Of a stretch of 64,000 nt of DNA, positions 13,504-33,031 are shown piece by piece; position 1 is the first letter of the stretch; each line of letters begins with the position of its first letter. Under the pieces are notes generated by a model. That model searched no databases and had not been told where the DNA came from. It saw only the letters and a program-made list of their open reading frames with translations. A program made the position numbers and the translations under genes. The stretch is taken from assembly GCA_031459765.1 (NCBI GenBank), contig JAVKHY010000001.1, positions 62,001 to 126,000 on the forward strand. The letters are read 5' to 3'. Origin of the DNA: Armatimonadota bacterium (GTDB lineage Bacteria; Sysuimicrobiota; Sysuimicrobiia; Sysuimicrobiales; Kaftiobacteriaceae).

Positions 13504-13533
13504 TTGACACTGCGGAATCGGGGGCCCTATAAT
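13504..13533 (+). promoter_or_regulatory. Strong promoter for the S1-domain gene
   Basis: Consensus TTGACA at 13504-13509, an 18-bp spacer and consensus TATAAT at 13528-13533. It begins directly after the divIC stop codon. Unlike the mfd and foldase promoters, the gene here has a normal leader of about 38 bases with AGGAGG at 13557-13562. Confidence 0.85.
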
Positions 13534-13577: not shown

Positions 13578-13955
13578 ATGGTCGTGGAGACCGGCGCGAT
13601 TGTGGAAGGCACCGTGGTCAAGATCACCCCATACGGCGCGTTCGTCGAACTCCCCGACGGTCGAAGCGGTCTGGTCCACATCCGGGAAATCGCCGACGTC
13701 TACGTCAAGGACGTCCGGGATTACCTGAAAGAGCAGGAGAAGGTCAAGGTCAAGGTCCTCGGCCTGAACGAGCGCGGCAAACTCGACCTCTCCGTCAAGC
13801 AGGCGCTCTCCCCCGAAGAGCGCGCCGCCCGCGCCCGCGCCAAGACCTCCTTCGAAGACAAGCTGAAGGCCTTCATGAAGGAGAGCGAGGAACGTCTCCT
13901 TGACCTGAAGCGCAACACCGAGGCCAAGCGGGGCGGCGGCAAGCGGCGGAAGTAA
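13578..13955 (+). CDS. S1 RNA-binding domain protein (YabR-like)
   Basis: 125 residues. One S1 domain fills residues 5-75 (GAIVEGTVVKITPYGAFVELPDG, GLVHIREIAD, VKVKVLGLNERGKLDLSVK), followed by a highly charged, lysine- and arginine-rich tail. The same single-S1 protein, YabR, follows divIC in Bacillus. The family binds ribosomes or RNA; the exact role is not settled. A near-consensus promoter lies upstream. AGGAGG is 15 bases from the ATG, longer than ideal, but no better start is seen. The gene ends facing the minus-strand operon. Confidence 0.87.
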   Translation: MVVETGAIVEGTVVKITPYGAFVELPDGRSGLVHIREIADVYVKDVRDYLKEQEKVKVKVLGLNERGKLDLSVKQALSPEERAARARAKTSFEDKLKAFMKESEERLLDLKRNTEAKRGGGKRRK

Positions 13956-21235: not shown

Positions 21236-21313
21236 GGCCCCATCGTCTAGCCTGGTCTAGGACATGGCCCTCTCAAGGCCAAGACACGGGTTCAAATCCC
21301 GTTGGGGCTACCA
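21236..21313 (+). tRNA. tRNA-Glu, anticodon CTC
   Basis: The acceptor stem pairs GGCCCCA (21236-21242) with TGGGGCT (21303-21309), ending in a G-U pair, then A73 and an encoded CCA (21311-21313). The anticodon stem TGGCC/GGCCA encloses the loop CTCTCAA, giving anticodon CTC for GAG codons. The T arm ACGGG-TTCAAAT-CCCGT is intact. Confidence 0.95.
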
Positions 21314-28052: not shown

Positions 28053-29219
28053 TCAGGTGGTGCTGAACCCGCGGCGGTCGTAGGTGTAGAGTTTGCCGTT
28101 GGCCCGCAGGCGGACCGGATTGCGCCAGAGCAGGTAGACGGCCTTCAGGAACAACCCCACGCGCTTGCTGTCCAGCTTGCGCTCTTCGTCGCGGTGGACC
28201 AGGACCAGTTCACGCTGGTGCGGTCCCGGCTCCACCTCGATGTAGGGCTCGCCCTTGAACAGCTTCTGGGTGATGAGCATCTCCTTGACCCGCTGCAGGT
28301 CGTAGGACTTCTGCTTCTCCTTGGGATCGTAGACGAAGATGTCCAGGGCCCGCACCATCTCCTCTGTCAGCACCTCGTCGATCAGCCGGATGTCCTCGTA
28401 ATAGGTGCGTATCTCCAGCGCCCGGTCGAAGCCCCGGTCGTTCTTCACCCGCTGGAACAGGGCGTAGCCGATGGTGTAGGGGGCGGGGCGGTTACACAGC
28501 TGGACACCCACGCTGGCCCACTCCCGGCTGGTCAGCACCTCGCGCAGCAGTTCGGCCTCGACGAAAGTGGCCCAGCCTTCGTTGATGATGTGGGTTCGCT
28601 GGATCAGGTCGAAGTATTCCGCCTCCTCGCGGATCATGGCCAGGATGTGCCGCTCCCACTCCTCCAGCGGGGCCCGCTCCTCCAGGGCGTAGATGAGGAG
28701 TCTGCGCCGCGCCGCCGGGTTGCGCTCGAAGGCGTTCACGGTGCGGGAGACGGTCAGCACGGCGTCCAGCAGCGGCTCAACACGCTCCCGGCCGTAGGTG
28801 GCCTCGTACTTCCGGATGGTTCGGGCGTGGAGCTCGGCCTCGTTGAGCATGTTCTTGTTGGACTTGCGGTACCAGTGGTTGTTCTTGAAGAAGTCCACGT
28901 GGCCGAAGACATGGGCGATGACCAGGACGTTCTGGAGGTAGGTGTTGCTGCCGCGCAGGAAGGCGTAGCTGGGATTCGTGTTCAGGACCAGCTCCAGGAT
29001 GCTGAAGACCTCCTTGTTCTGCTGGAGGGTCAGCTCCTTGTAGGCCCCGCCCCAGTACCAGTGGATGAACCGGTTGGGCAGGCCCATGCTGGCCACCTCG
29101 GCCAGCTCGTCGCTGTCTGTGAGGCGGAAGACCACCGGGTCGAAGGAGAGGCCGCGCTCCCGGGCCAGCCCCTCGATGCGGTCAATGACGCCGCGATAGG
29201 GCTCCACGCCGCCGCTCAC
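28053..29219 (-). CDS. spoVR: SpoVR-family protein
   Basis: 388 residues, somewhat shorter than the roughly 470-510 of Bacillus and E. coli members. The conserved N-terminal part contains MGLPNRFIHWYWGGAYKEL, NTNPSYAFLRGSN and VIAHVFGHVDFFKNN; further in are INEGWATFVEAELL and NPYAFG-like RPAPYTIGYALF. In spore-formers SpoVR affects the cortex; elsewhere it travels with PrkA and YhbH/YeaH in stress adaptation. It is the last gene of that trio. Its GTG start lies 38 bp inside yhbH; a later in-frame GTG (Val5) is possible. Confidence 0.92.
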   Translation of the reverse strand: MSGGVEPYRGVIDRIEGLARERGLSFDPVVFRLTDSDELAEVASMGLPNRFIHWYWGGAYKELTLQQNKEVFSILELVLNTNPSYAFLRGSNTYLQNVLVIAHVFGHVDFFKNNHWYRKSNKNMLNEAELHARTIRKYEATYGRERVEPLLDAVLTVSRTVNAFERNPAARRRLLIYALEERAPLEEWERHILAMIREEAEYFDLIQRTHIINEGWATFVEAELLREVLTSREWASVGVQLCNRPAPYTIGYALFQRVKNDRGFDRALEIRTYYEDIRLIDEVLTEEMVRALDIFVYDPKEKQKSYDLQRVKEMLITQKLFKGEPYIEVEPGPHQRELVLVHRDEERKLDSKRVGLFLKAVYLLWRNPVRLRANGKLYTYDRRGFSTT

Positions 29220-30348
29220 GTTCCTCGGCGAAAAACCTCAGGAATTCGGCCGCCGTCTTGCGGATGGCGTCGACGTCCACCAGGTTGCTGAACAGGACGC
29301 GGCCCCGCCGCCCCGCGGCCTCCTGCACGTACTCCGAAAAGCCGCCCACCCCGCGGCCGCCCGGGTTGACGTGCCCGTAGCAGACCAGGTCGAACCGCTC
29401 CAGGGCCTCGGCGAACCGGCGCTTGGCCAGATCAAAGTCGCCCGACGACGTCTCGCCGTCCGTGAAGAGGAACAGGAATTTGTCGTGCTCGGTGACGCCC
29501 TGGAGGAGCTGCACGGCCTTCTCAAACCCGGCGGAGATGTGGGTCCCGCCGCTGCTCTCGACGCAGAAAAACTCGTCGCGCGTCTTCTCCTCGGCCACAT
29601 CCTGGAAGACGACGTACCGCCGGAGGTTGGTGGGGTAGCGGCGCTCCAGGTAGTGCCACAGCACGAAAATCGTCTTCCGCACCAGGGAGAGGTACTCCCC
29701 GCGCATGGAGCCGGAGATGTCCAGGACGTAGACCTCGACGGAGCGGTGGTTCCGGTAGTCGGTGGGATCCTCCACGAAGTACCAGCCGTCCTGGGCCAGC
29801 TCGACCTCGTAGTCGCCGACGCCCCGCTCCCGGAGATTGCGCTGCAAAGCGGCCAGCATCGTCTCCTCCAGGTTCAGGTCGGGACGCAGGCCGATGCGGT
29901 CGAGATCGTACAGTTCCGGAAGATCCAGCGCCTCCGCTTCCCCGCCGGTGGCGGCATCGGCAAAGACAGGCAGGTGGATCTCGTCCAGCAGCACCTCCTG
30001 GGCCAGGCGGACGAACTCGTCGAAGTCCAGCTCCACCTTCATCTCCTTGCCGTGGTGGTCCCCGCCCAGCAGCCCGCCCAGAACCTGCATCTCCTCCCCG
30101 CCGGCCTGGCCGCTCCCCCCGCCGGCCCCGGCGCCGCCGCCGCGGGCCAGCACCGCGCTCTCCTCCCCAAACTTCAACGTCGGCAGGTCCAGCGTGGCGA
30201 TCTGGGTCTTCACCCGCCCGTCAACCACGAGCTCCTTCTGTTGGATGAGCTCGTTGAGATGCTGCTTGAGGTATTCGCGCAGGAGCGTGTCGTGTTTGTG
30301 CTGGGCGATGCGCCCCCGGTGGATGCGCATGGCGCGGGACGGGGGCAC
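29182..30348 (-). CDS. yhbH: YhbH/YeaH-family (DUF444) von Willebrand-like protein
   Basis: 388 residues. An N-terminal basic segment (RIHRGRIAQHKHDTLLREYLKQHL) is followed by a glycine-rich linker near 70-100. A VWA-like domain carries the metal-site sequence VLDISGSMRGEYLSLV near 215 and FTDGETSSGDFDLA near 300. This is the DUF444 protein that always accompanies PrkA and SpoVR; it probably bridges the two. The GTG at 30348 has GGGAGGAG nine bases upstream. It starts two bases after prkA. Confidence 0.92.
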   Translation of the reverse strand: MPPSRAMRIHRGRIAQHKHDTLLREYLKQHLNELIQQKELVVDGRVKTQIATLDLPTLKFGEESAVLARGGGAGAGGGSGQAGGEEMQVLGGLLGGDHHGKEMKVELDFDEFVRLAQEVLLDEIHLPVFADAATGGEAEALDLPELYDLDRIGLRPDLNLEETMLAALQRNLRERGVGDYEVELAQDGWYFVEDPTDYRNHRSVEVYVLDISGSMRGEYLSLVRKTIFVLWHYLERRYPTNLRRYVVFQDVAEEKTRDEFFCVESSGGTHISAGFEKAVQLLQGVTEHDKFLFLFTDGETSSGDFDLAKRRFAEALERFDLVCYGHVNPGGRGVGGFSEYVQEAAGRRGRVLFSNLVDVDAIRKTAAEFLRFFAEERERRRGALSRRH

Positions 30349-30350
30349 GG

Positions 30351-32006
30351 CTAGAAACTCCTCCCGATGACCTTGAACAGCGACCGGGCGCAGACGTCGC
30401 AGTAGCCGTACTCCTGGGTGGCGCTGCGGTACAGGACATCCAGCAGTTGCTGGCTCTTGCTGTCCAGCTCCTCGCTCTTCTCATAGAGCCGGAGGAGGTT
30501 CTTGATCTTGTTGAAGACGATCTCGTTGATCACCGGACGGAGGTGCTCGTTCTCCGTATAACGCATGCGGCGCAACTCATCCCTGCGCTCCAGCAGGACG
30601 TTCTCGAAGGCCACCCGCCCCTGCCGGCTGATCTGCCGCTTCTGGACCATAATCCCCTCGACCTCATCGACCAGTTCCTTCTCCCCGTTGGCCAGCGGCT
30701 CCCCGGCCACGTTGCGCGCGGCGGCGTCCAGATAGTTGAGGTAGAGGTTCTGGGCATAGTCGTAAAAGTGCCCGGGCACGATCTCCTCGACGATGAGATC
30801 GATCTTCCTGTTGATGAACTCGACCTTCGTCTCCTCGAACTGCTTGAGCAGTTCTTTCACGTTCAGGTCCTTGAAGGACTGGTGCTCGAAGGTCCGTTCC
30901 ACGGCCGCGGCGATCGTGTCCAGGTCCAGGCAGCGGTCGGCCAGGGTGTAGGCGTAGGAGAAGGCGTCCTCGAAGAACCGCGGGGACAGTCCGCGCAGCC
31001 CCTGGGACTCCTCGCGGGTCTTCAGGGCATAGCGCGCGGCGAGTTCGTAGACGTCCTCCGGGACGTGTTTGTCTTCTCCGCGGATGCGGTTGGCCCGGCT
31101 GATCAGGGCCTTGTAGATCTTCTTCTCGCCCTCCAGATCGGTGTTGTAGGGGAAGTCGATCTTGTGGATGCGGCCGCGCAGCGGCTCCATGATGTCCTCG
31201 GAGACGAAGACCGTGTACTCCGGGTAGTTGCTGTGCCCGATCACCACCTCGTCCACGTGCACGGTGGGAAAGCTGGCCAGGTCGATGCGCTTGCTCTGGA
31301 TGAGCTCCAACAGCAGGGAGAGGAGCTGGCGGCGGCTCTTGAAGACCTCCGTCCAGTCCAGGATGCCGCGGTTGGCCCAGATGATCTTTCCCTCGAAATC
31401 GTAGGCCGCGGGATCGTAGGTGGACCCCCGCTCCTTGAGCATGGCGAAATTGATGTTGCCGACGAAGTTGGTGATGTCCTCGCGCCGCAGGTCGGTGGGG
31501 GTGTGCTTGGCCACGCCGATCTTGTCCCGGGCCGAGATGTAGATCCGGGTGATGGGGACCGCGCGCCACGTGCCGTGGCGGGCGATGATCCGGTCACACA
31601 CCGGACAGGGCACGGCCTCCTCGTGCCAGAAGATGCCGTGGTCTTCGCGCACCTCCGGCGGCACCAGGTCGAAGGGGTGCTGGTGGAAGGGACAGCCCTC
31701 TACCGCGTACAGCGCGCCGCTCGCCGTGTGGGAGTATTCCTCCAGCTTGCGCTTCAGCCGGTCCACGGTCATGGACTTGCCCGAGCCCTGCGGACCGACC
31801 AGGAGGAGCAGCCGCCGTTCCATGGACATCGAGTACGCCCGGAAGTAGGCCACGATGTCGTCAAGCTGCTTCTCCATGCCGTAGACGCCCTCGAAGACGC
31901 GGTCCCGGCCGTAGTGTTCGATCATGTCGGAGATGTAGTGGTGCGTGGTCCGGCGGAGGCGGCGGTCGTGTCGCGACTCCTGGAGGTAGTCGGCAACGGT
32001 GTGCAT
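30351..32006 (-). CDS. prkA: PrkA AAA+ protein (serine kinase/protease family)
   Basis: 551 residues; Bacillus PrkA and E. coli YeaG are about 630-640, so this copy has a shorter N-terminus and some internal loss. Walker A is GPQGSGKSM near residue 76. Typical blocks follow: YAVEGCPFHQHPFDLVP, CPVCDRI, DITNFVGNIN, NRGILDWTEVFKS and EEIVPGHFYDYAQNLYLNYLDAA. The C-terminus ends in YGYCDVCARSLFKVIGRSF. PrkA was described as a Ser/Thr kinase and more recently as an AAA+ protease in Bacillus. It heads the prkA-yhbH-spoVR operon and follows a long structured leader. Confidence 0.94.
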   Translation of the reverse strand: MHTVADYLQESRHDRRLRRTTHHYISDMIEHYGRDRVFEGVYGMEKQLDDIVAYFRAYSMSMERRLLLLVGPQGSGKSMTVDRLKRKLEEYSHTASGALYAVEGCPFHQHPFDLVPPEVREDHGIFWHEEAVPCPVCDRIIARHGTWRAVPITRIYISARDKIGVAKHTPTDLRREDITNFVGNINFAMLKERGSTYDPAAYDFEGKIIWANRGILDWTEVFKSRRQLLSLLLELIQSKRIDLASFPTVHVDEVVIGHSNYPEYTVFVSEDIMEPLRGRIHKIDFPYNTDLEGEKKIYKALISRANRIRGEDKHVPEDVYELAARYALKTREESQGLRGLSPRFFEDAFSYAYTLADRCLDLDTIAAAVERTFEHQSFKDLNVKELLKQFEETKVEFINRKIDLIVEEIVPGHFYDYAQNLYLNYLDAAARNVAGEPLANGEKELVDEVEGIMVQKRQISRQGRVAFENVLLERRDELRRMRYTENEHLRPVINEIVFNKIKNLLRLYEKSEELDSKSQQLLDVLYRSATQEYGYCDVCARSLFKVIGRSF

Positions 32007-32279
32007 CTCAGCCCCTGGTATCCCTCCAGACGACGACGACCGGATTGCTGGTTCTCATGCCCACCCTCCCGCCCGGCCAGTCGGGCGAGAAACGCAGAAA
32101 CCCGGCCGACAGGCTTCCGCCGGGTTCCGCGACGACACGAGCGTGCGCCTGATTGCCTGGGGCGCGTGGTCGCATGGAATACGCTCCGTCTGGCCCGTCC
32201 CGGGGGACGGGACTGAGTCCGAGTATGCGCCGGATGATGACAAACCTGTCACGGCGGCGCGTCAGACCGCCGGATATTG
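32007..32279 (-). promoter_or_regulatory. Long structured 5' leader of the prkA operon
   Basis: From the predicted start of transcription near 32279 to the prkA ATG the leader is about 270 bases. In RNA sense it holds three hairpins. The first is a 7-bp stem with a 4-base loop (32211-32205 with 32200-32194). The second is a 10-bp stem with a 12-base loop (32128-32119 with 32106-32097), followed by a pyrimidine-rich run. The third is a 6-bp stem (32087-32082 with 32075-32070) whose 3' arm touches the ribosome site of a 16-codon reading frame. I recognise no known riboswitch class. No protein gene fits this 290-bp gap apart from the mini-ORF. Confidence 0.5.
32008..32058 (-). CDS. Putative 16-residue leader peptide before prkA
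   Basis: ATG 32058 is preceded by GGGAGGG at good spacing. It encodes MRTSNPVVVVWRDTRG and stops one base before the prkA ATG. The run of four valines and the tight junction suggest a leader peptide coupled to prkA translation; chance is not excluded at this size. Confidence 0.35.
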   Translation of the reverse strand: MRTSNPVVVVWRDTRG

Positions 32280-32285
32280 CTGGTG

Positions 32286-32314
32286 AGTATACGGCGGGCC
32301 TTCCCCGCTGTCAA
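32286..32314 (-). promoter_or_regulatory. Promoter of the prkA-yhbH-spoVR operon
   Basis: On the minus strand: consensus TTGACA at 32314-32309, a 17-bp spacer and TATACT at 32291-32286. It lies in the gap between prkA and the convergently placed end of the mntR-like gene's neighbour region. Confidence 0.8.
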
Positions 32315-32350: not shown

Positions 32351-33031
32351 CTACGAAGCGTGGTCCGGGGTCAAGGCGGCCGGCGACGCCGCGACGTGCA
32401 CAGCGTCGGCCAAACGCCGACTGAGGTCCTGCTCCGCGCCCTCGGTGCGCACCCGCAGGCCGCCGTCGGCGGCGACCTGCAGCACGCGCACTTCGGTCCC
32501 CGGAAGCAACCCCGCCCCGGCCAGATCGCGCAGGACCTCCGGATTGCGGTCGCTCACGCGCACGATGGTGCCGCCCTGCCCCGCCCGCAGGTCGGAGAGG
32601 AGGGGATAGTGCGCCTCGGCCACCGTCCCGTCGCGGCCGGGGATGGGATCGCCGTGGGGATCGTGGGTCGGCTCCCCCAGGGAGGCGGCGATCCGCTCTT
32701 CCAACTCCTCGGAGAGGACATGTTCCAGGCGGTCCGCTTCCTGGTGGACGCGCTCCAGGCTGACCCCGAGCGCCTGGGACAGGTAGAGCTCCAGCAGCCG
32801 GTGATGGCGGATGACCTCCAGGGCCACCTTCTCCCCCGTCGCCGTCAGCACCACGCCGCGGTACGGCGCGTGCTCGACCAGGCGGAGCTGGGCCAGCTTC
32901 TTGATCATGTTGGAGGCGGACGCGGGGGAGACCGCCATCTCCGCGGCCAGGGCATTGGTGGTGACCCCCGCCTCCTTCCGCTGGAGCCGGTAGATCGTCT
33001 TGAGGTAGTCCTCGACGGAACGGGTGAGCAT
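32351..33031 (-). CDS. DtxR-family metal-dependent repressor, MntR-type residues
   Basis: 226 residues from ATG 33031. It contains a winged helix (1-65; MAVSPASASNMIKKLAQLRLVEH is the recognition region), a dimerisation/metal domain (66-140) and a C-terminal FeoA-like SH3 domain (about 150-215). At the primary metal site Asp8 (VEDYLKTIY) replaces DtxR Met10 and Asp100 (EADRLEHV) replaces DtxR Cys102, with Glu103 and His104 kept. Acidic residues at these two places mark Mn(II)-sensing MntR rather than Fe(II)-sensing DtxR/IdeR. It is the last gene of the operon it probably represses, beginning two bases after the ZIP gene. Confidence 0.9.
   Translation of the reverse strand: MLTRSVEDYLKTIYRLQRKEAGVTTNALAAEMAVSPASASNMIKKLAQLRLVEHAPYRGVVLTATGEKVALEVIRHHRLLELYLSQALGVSLERVHQEADRLEHVLSEELEERIAASLGEPTHDPHGDPIPGRDGTVAEAHYPLLSDLRAGQGGTIVRVSDRNPEVLRDLAGAGLLPGTEVRVLQVAADGGLRVRTEGAEQDLSRRLADAVHVAASPAALTPDHAS

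Follow-up and report, generated by a model that had tools for sequence, protein, structure and literature searches.

The prkA gene of the window, the whole 64,000-nucleotide stretch of DNA that was analysed, lies on the minus strand at positions 30351–32006, starts with an ATG at 32006 and encodes an AAA_PrkA domain and the PrkA C-terminal domain. It is followed directly by a yhbH-type gene (DUF444; 29182–30348, minus strand) and, as the third member of the presumed prkA operon, by a spoVR-type gene (28053–29219, minus strand). Upstream, on the same strand, a gene for an MntR/DtxR-type metal regulator with a FeoA domain occupies positions 32351–33031. Its stop is separated by 36 bases from a sigma-70-type promoter, TTGACA-N17-TATACT (32286–32314, minus strand), which matches the TTGACA/TATAAT consensus at 11 of 12 bases and was located exactly as the original prediction described it. 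This is the sole sigma-70-like site between positions 31400 and 32700, where shuffled sequences yield 0.0 ± 0.2 such sites. The perfect pattern TTGACA-N16-18-TATACT occurs three times in the 2.8-Mb genome, including the copy at prkA, and never in the reversed control. The other two copies are found in L059 (1501–1528) and L060 (1501–1530); one precedes an apparent thrS T-box leader and the other sits between an apparent ftsY and a ylxM-like gene, the gene names being read from the DNA without a search. Within the window, the sole other TTGACA-N16-18-TATA(A/C)T site is TTGACA-N18-TATAAT on the plus strand (13504–13533), 44 bases before a 125-residue frame (13578–13955) that presumably encodes an S1-domain-like protein.

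With the transcription start inferred from the promoter, the predicted 5' leader of the prkA mRNA spans 273 nt (32007–32279, minus strand). All of its features are on the minus strand. A promoter-proximal GC hairpin, CCCGTCCC..GGGACGGG, is located at 32194–32211. The putative attenuator is a terminator hairpin, AACCCGGC..GCCGGGTT (32099–32126), with eight outer and two inner Watson–Crick pairs, followed by an interrupted U-tract, TCTGCGTTTCT (32088–32098); the attenuator-like stem and the pyrimidine-rich run that had been predicted are thus both present (32126–32088). A third hairpin with a 6-bp core, CGCCCG-ACTGGC-CGGGCG (32070–32087), adjoins the Shine–Dalgarno-like GGAGGG (32064–32069) of a 16-codon frame, MRTSNPVVVVWRDTRG (32008–32058), the TGA stop of which lies one base before prkA. 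In the predicted fold this hairpin comprises 9 bp (32090–32067) and extends into the GGAGGG. Folding of the whole leader is modestly above that of shuffled sequences (z −2.19; 5 of 200 shuffles as good). The three hairpins that had been proposed can each be located, but at minimum energy the leader folds into a single large branched structure, not into three separate stems. Six terminator-like sites on both strands of the 64-kb window score at least 18, and the prkA hairpin is the second best of them; a stricter terminator scan gave no site near prkA.

The locus was compared across the little-studied phylum CSP1-3, named Sysuimicrobiota (PMC11604079). A PrkA match was present in 34 of 43 Sysuimicrobiota genomes. 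Two of these lacked a usable leader and were left out, one because its contig ends inside prkA (G033) and the other because only the C-terminal part matched (G031). Since G007 contributed two loci, the comparison set comprises 33 prkA loci from 32 genomes, the window's own genome included; L031–L043, L048 and L049 are repeats of these loci, and the Wallbacteria/Riflebacteria loci L044–L047 were excluded. PrkA identity to the window's protein is 76–93% in 15 of 19 loci. The metagenome-assembled genomes (MAGs) of those 15 are labelled Armatimonadetes/Armatimonadota, ANGP1 or, singly, Bacillota or unnamed bacterium. PrkA of the CSP1-3 genome G038, which belongs to the same order as the window's genome, is 80% identical. 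In G007 (L003, L051), a full prkA is accompanied by both ends of a second prkA on two other contigs (84–87% identity), the 5' end of which carries its own promoter and attenuator; this gene is either a second copy or contamination. Among the excluded loci, three from MAGs labelled Wallbacteria (L044, L045, L046) display, by eye, a GC hairpin before prkA; its tail is T-rich (CTCATTTCTGG or similar), and the hairpin lies within about 100 nt of the gene, directly after a promoter-like site.

In 31 of the 33 loci the promoter before prkA matches the consensus at 11–12 of 12 bases and has a spacer of 17 or 18; the exceptions are L009, which scores 10, and L054, which scores only 7. Across the phylum the perfect promoter pattern is found 133 times in 37 of the 43 genomes, compared with 4 in the reversed control. 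By inspection of the printed leaders, a GC-rich hairpin was recognised in 26 of the 33, with a tail of the type CTGTGTTTTC behind it. An automatic rule identified terminator-like sites in 20 of 33 leaders versus 1.15 expected from dinucleotide shuffles. Nineteen of the 20 fall in the 26 leaders recognized by eye, the site in L028 being a different one; in L012 and L019 the rule reports another register or the inner hairpin only, and it misses seven of the 26 (L003, L004, L009, L014, L017, L022 and L023). No such hairpin was found in the other seven loci (L010, L011, L026, L027, L028, L054 and L056), and prkA can therefore do without it.

Covariation was assessed on 23 of the 26 hairpins, the near-identical L008, L052 and L023 being dropped; L014 and L012 seem misaligned by about one base and were retained. 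In this alignment 88.3% of the stem cells are paired, 41 cells are changed on both sides, and two-sided changes affect 8 of the 10 stem pairs. None of 500 stem shuffles reached the observed number of paired cells, of changed cells or the score; one of 500 reached the number of pairs changed and 23 of 500 that of further pair types. Sliding the alignment by one to three columns lowers every covariation measure. As read from the alignment, stem pairs switch between A-U and G-C within both family f1, to which the window belongs, and family f7, so the stem changes do not represent one inherited event. Once the relatives are compared, the putative terminator hairpin is thus far beyond chance, and the covariation check that accompanied the original prediction, now run on related leaders, leaves attenuation unrefuted because the stem covaries.

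The hairpin could in principle belong to the upstream gene. MntR is encoded upstream of prkA in 11 of the 33 loci, all in families f1 and f5, and in 9 of the 26 hairpin-bearing loci. It was not found upstream in the other 17 of the 26, in 12 of which more than 1 kb of upstream DNA was searched, which argues that the hairpin is not merely the mntR terminator.

The interruption of the U-tract finds a counterpart in the T-box leaders (RF00230) of the same genome. Twelve T-box hits (L061–L072) were obtained at E ≤ 0.001, the best at 80 bits; the Rfam gathering score is 93, so default Rfam annotation would report no T-box here. Among the 12 hits, ten loci contain a T-box-like core string, and a rule of the same kind finds a terminator in eight of them. 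The tails of the T-box terminators in this genome (for example CTGTGTTTCTTG, CTGTGTTTCTTGCG, TTGTGTTTGCGGCC and CGCCTTTCATTTTC) resemble that of the prkA hairpin, and an interrupted U-tract is therefore normal for its attenuators. The prkA and T-box leaders share a long structured leader and an intrinsic terminator with an interrupted U-tract, and the T-box leader of the apparent thrS, like prkA, also follows a perfect TTGACA-TATACT promoter. Unlike the T-box leaders, the prkA leader has no RF00230 match and no antiterminator signal, and the gene that it precedes is not related to amino acids.

In the 26 hairpin-bearing leaders the distance from the predicted start to the terminator has a median of 179.5 nt (range 99–244, CV 0.19), and that from the terminator to prkA varies more (CV 0.51). 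No sigma-70-like promoter between terminator and prkA exceeds the level of simple letter shuffles in any of the 26; the best sites there score 5–8 of 12, and the smallest shuffle fraction is 0.33. A promoter for an alternative sigma factor may lie after the terminator. In six loci without the hairpin (L010, L011, L026, L027, L028 and L056) the promoter is kept, with 62–97 nt from the predicted start to prkA, and in L054 neither promoter nor hairpin is clear. The predicted terminator module is thus apparently gained or lost among loci. The comparison itself shows the promoter, the terminator stem with its covariation and with selection acting on it, their order and their spacing.

This layout bears on the reading that the segment is a stand-alone small RNA gene of about 180–200 nt, with prkA expressed mainly by read-through or from another promoter. 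The likelihoods given here to this and the other alternatives, sub-cases included, are not mutually exclusive. The fairly constant length between promoter and terminator, next to a variable distance from terminator to gene, would suit a small RNA, as would the occurrence of strong matches to a sequence model of the leaders (R1, below) only at prkA. However, no sigma-70-like promoter above shuffle level precedes prkA in 26 of 26 leaders, and what lies between promoter and terminator cannot be recognised from one family to another. Moreover, because the promoter is kept before prkA in the six hairpin-less loci, it evidently serves prkA, and a separate small RNA gene is quite improbable.

Several of the observations, namely the imperfect U-tract and the failure to find a sensor or an antiterminator signal, would also fit a partial terminator that is not regulated, or a 5' hairpin with a stabilising role, either of which would do no more than reduce the output from a strong promoter. 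Yet a weaker promoter would suffice for that purpose, whereas several families retain the near-consensus promoter together with the covarying terminator, which makes an unregulated element a rather unlikely explanation.

At the gathering score, Rfam 15 gave nothing in the leader when the window was searched; a tRNA was found at 21236–21310. Searches with the leader at E up to 10 and with 17 loci (among them L001, that of the window's own genome) at E up to 5 returned sub-threshold matches only, which are taken for chance. RF00230 is absent from the matches listed for the prkA leader, and the leader is absent from the T-box hits of the genome. The original statement that the leader matches no known riboswitch is thus borne out as far as Rfam 15 goes, for the window, the leader and the 17 loci. 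Tests on 23 leaders (L008, L052 and L022 dropped) detected no antiterminator pairing (p 0.58 and 0.81) and no anti-antiterminator. Between families f1 and f7 no common sequence could be recognised in the stretch from promoter to terminator, and RNAalifold applied to whole-leader alignments of f1 and of f7 gave weak, unhelpful consensus structures. The nearest relatives, L002 and L003, carry hairpins of different sequence at the position of the 32194–32211 hairpin, as judged from the alignment by eye. An apparently shared motif, GGAGC...ACCA, was rejected since it did not hold up outside the training data: f7-trained profiles missed f1, and f1-trained ones missed f7. Three leaders of one f7 genus (L024, L025 and L050) have, by eye, a conserved CGTACGGGGTATA segment between terminator and prkA.

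A helix closing the segment ahead of the terminator was also considered. Measured as duplex energy, it received no support (p 0.23 and 0.47). Measured as the longest contiguous helix, it gave p values of 0.0001–0.033 over five settings and of 5e-5 to 0.036 over 15 settings; the reversed-sequence control gave p 0.010–0.016 and within-family permutation p 0.025–0.040. The values were 0.005–0.007 with f5 omitted and 0.0002–0.007 for f7 alone, in which the first 20–30 nt were paired with the segment preceding the terminator. For f1 alone, the family of the window, the helix was unsupported (p 0.50–0.68). A closing helix is not claimed for the window, given the null result in f1 and the part of the signal that composition accounts for.

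A sequence-only model of the leaders, R1, came out without base pairs. In a genome search with stricter filters, in which 86 candidates were scored per genome, it returned 19 places below E 1e-5, all of which are prkA leaders and 17 of which had served for training; it missed one training leader (G037). Seventeen weaker matches range from 0.0025 to 0.1; the best of these is the opposite strand of a prkA leader, and the leader of L013 is among them. As strong matches of this weak model occur only at prkA, the element seems dedicated to the prkA operon.

These searches bear on a sub-case of attenuation in which an aptamer of unknown class between promoter and terminator would gate the terminator in response to a small molecule. 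The order of promoter, structured segment and terminator is that of a riboswitch, and in f7 the 5' 20–30 nt pair with the pre-terminator segment above permuted pairs, as a closing helix would. However, the reversed and within-family controls, the null result in f1 and the negative duplex energy detract from the helix; there is no Rfam match and no antiterminator signal, the segment is not common to the families, and the strong matches of the weak model R1 lie only before prkA. A riboswitch of this kind therefore appears unlikely.

Translation of the leader would offer two further routes to control. The 16-codon frame ending one base before prkA is real, as had been noted, but a specific role for it is not supported, since the nearest relatives do not keep it intact: L003 has lost one base directly behind the mini-ORF ATG, and in L002 the homologous frame has no stop before prkA. 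Similarly, the hairpin abutting the ribosome site of the mini-ORF is present, but it is not conserved by eye in the aligned relatives, and a functional role for it gains no support. Frames of at least 8 codons that have a Shine–Dalgarno-like site, lie after the terminator and end between −9 and +1 of prkA occur in 10 of 23 leaders versus 2.83 expected from shuffles; for those ending between −5 and +1 the figures are 7 versus 2.58, and for those ending at +1 (the ATGA overlap) 6 versus 2.07. Without the ribosome-site requirement the corresponding counts are 12 versus 5.27, 8 versus 4.82 and 6 versus 3.87. For these counts the start of prkA was re-chosen in L019 and L020 (and in L052, which is not counted) once the overlaps had been seen.

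The enrichment of ribosome-site-bearing frames that end at the prkA start makes translational coupling plausible, in which the short frame behind the terminator would control prkA by termination and reinitiation, a reading compatible with attenuation. The excess is smaller without the ribosome-site requirement, the encoded peptides differ, the frame is broken or unstopped in the two nearest relatives, and two of the starts were re-chosen, and this form of control is accordingly offered only tentatively. A conserved peptide encoded by the upstream frame is not plausible; neither frame nor peptide is conserved over the set, and as read from the alignment the peptides look alike only within one f7 genus.

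If attenuation depended on the ribosome, translation of a leader frame that precedes or crosses the terminator would decide whether transcription stops. L001, L002 and L003 each have a terminator-crossing frame that begins with MRPRAP, is preceded by GGAG 8 nt before its ATG and has a stop that begins 4, 5 and 12 nt ahead of prkA, respectively. The stem is crossed in one and the same frame in L001 and L003, but in another in L002, which is from the genus of the window's genome; no frame is open across the whole set, and long frames are common in such GC-rich DNA. For a leader peptide of the trp type, none of the frames that run through the stem stays open in all 26 leaders, frames wholly upstream of the stem having been inspected by eye only. 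A decision by the ribosome is thus very improbable. A conserved small protein encoded through the terminator, suggested by AGFLxFS-like peptides, was discarded, several members having nearby stops in each frame.

The preferred interpretation is that the region is a leader subject to attenuation at an intrinsic terminator, and that prkA-yhbH-spoVR is expressed by read-through. This is quite likely, and the attenuation of the prkA operon proposed at the outset gains weight from the comparison: a covarying terminator lies behind a conserved promoter, no second promoter rises above the shuffles, and the tails resemble those of the T-box terminators. RNA polymerase would start at the near-consensus housekeeping promoter and synthesize about 180 nt of structured RNA before meeting the intrinsic terminator, and only polymerases that read through would reach prkA-yhbH-spoVR. 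The hairpin is inferred to terminate transcription in the cell. Since the promoter is strong and of the housekeeping type, the amount of PrkA would most likely be set at the terminator. Read-through would be regulated, presumably by a protein factor or an RNA fold that acts on the rapidly evolving stretch separating the promoter from the terminator. Because no antiterminator pairing was found, protein-mediated antitermination seems likelier than a classical riboswitch based on alternative folds. Here and in several other genomes translation may in addition be coupled through a short frame that lies beyond the terminator and ends at the start of prkA. The leader may allow conditional control of the operon, possibly linked to a stress signal.

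The gene order prkA, vWA-domain gene, spoVR-like gene is also that of Rhizobium etli, in which the genes were shown to form an operon (PMC3188799). In that species prkA expression is dependent on sigma-N and (p)ppGpp; RpoS for yeaG in Escherichia coli and S. Typhimurium and sigma-E in Bacillus subtilis are cited in the same source. The control described for these bacteria acts through alternative sigma factors, whereas the present locus combines a near-consensus housekeeping promoter with a terminator in the leader. Expression by read-through would thus shift control of prkA in this phylum to elongation. It is possible, though doubtful, that the promoter–terminator segment acts as an RNA sensor of an unrecognised kind or as the landing site for an unrecognised antitermination factor, through which the PrkA-YhbH-SpoVR module would be controlled at elongation in place of an alternative sigma factor.

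Premature terminators in 5' leaders, many of them without a known sensor, were described by comparative genomics in PMC2965389 and are the same kind of feature; the names prkA, yeaG, yhbH and spoVR do not occur in the main text of that paper. The names prkA, spoVR and yeaG are likewise absent from the main text of PMC2864571, and spoVR occurs in PMC4448311 only in tables of B. subtilis segments. PrkA has been studied in sporulation and osmotic stress of B. anthracis (PMC13001217), and neither "leader" nor "untranslated" occurs in the main text of that paper. Among the best matches in the open-access literature, judged by title and the start of the abstract, no description of such a leader of the prkA module was found. 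The element appears to be an attenuator-type leader that is widely retained within one phylum; its place and its gene are new, its kind is known.

The PrkA-YhbH-SpoVR module is widespread and is strongly induced by stress or in stationary phase in several bacteria (PMC3188799). The retention of the promoter together with the covarying terminator across several families makes a concrete test possible. Finding what lets polymerase pass the putative terminator would provide the signal for this poorly known module.
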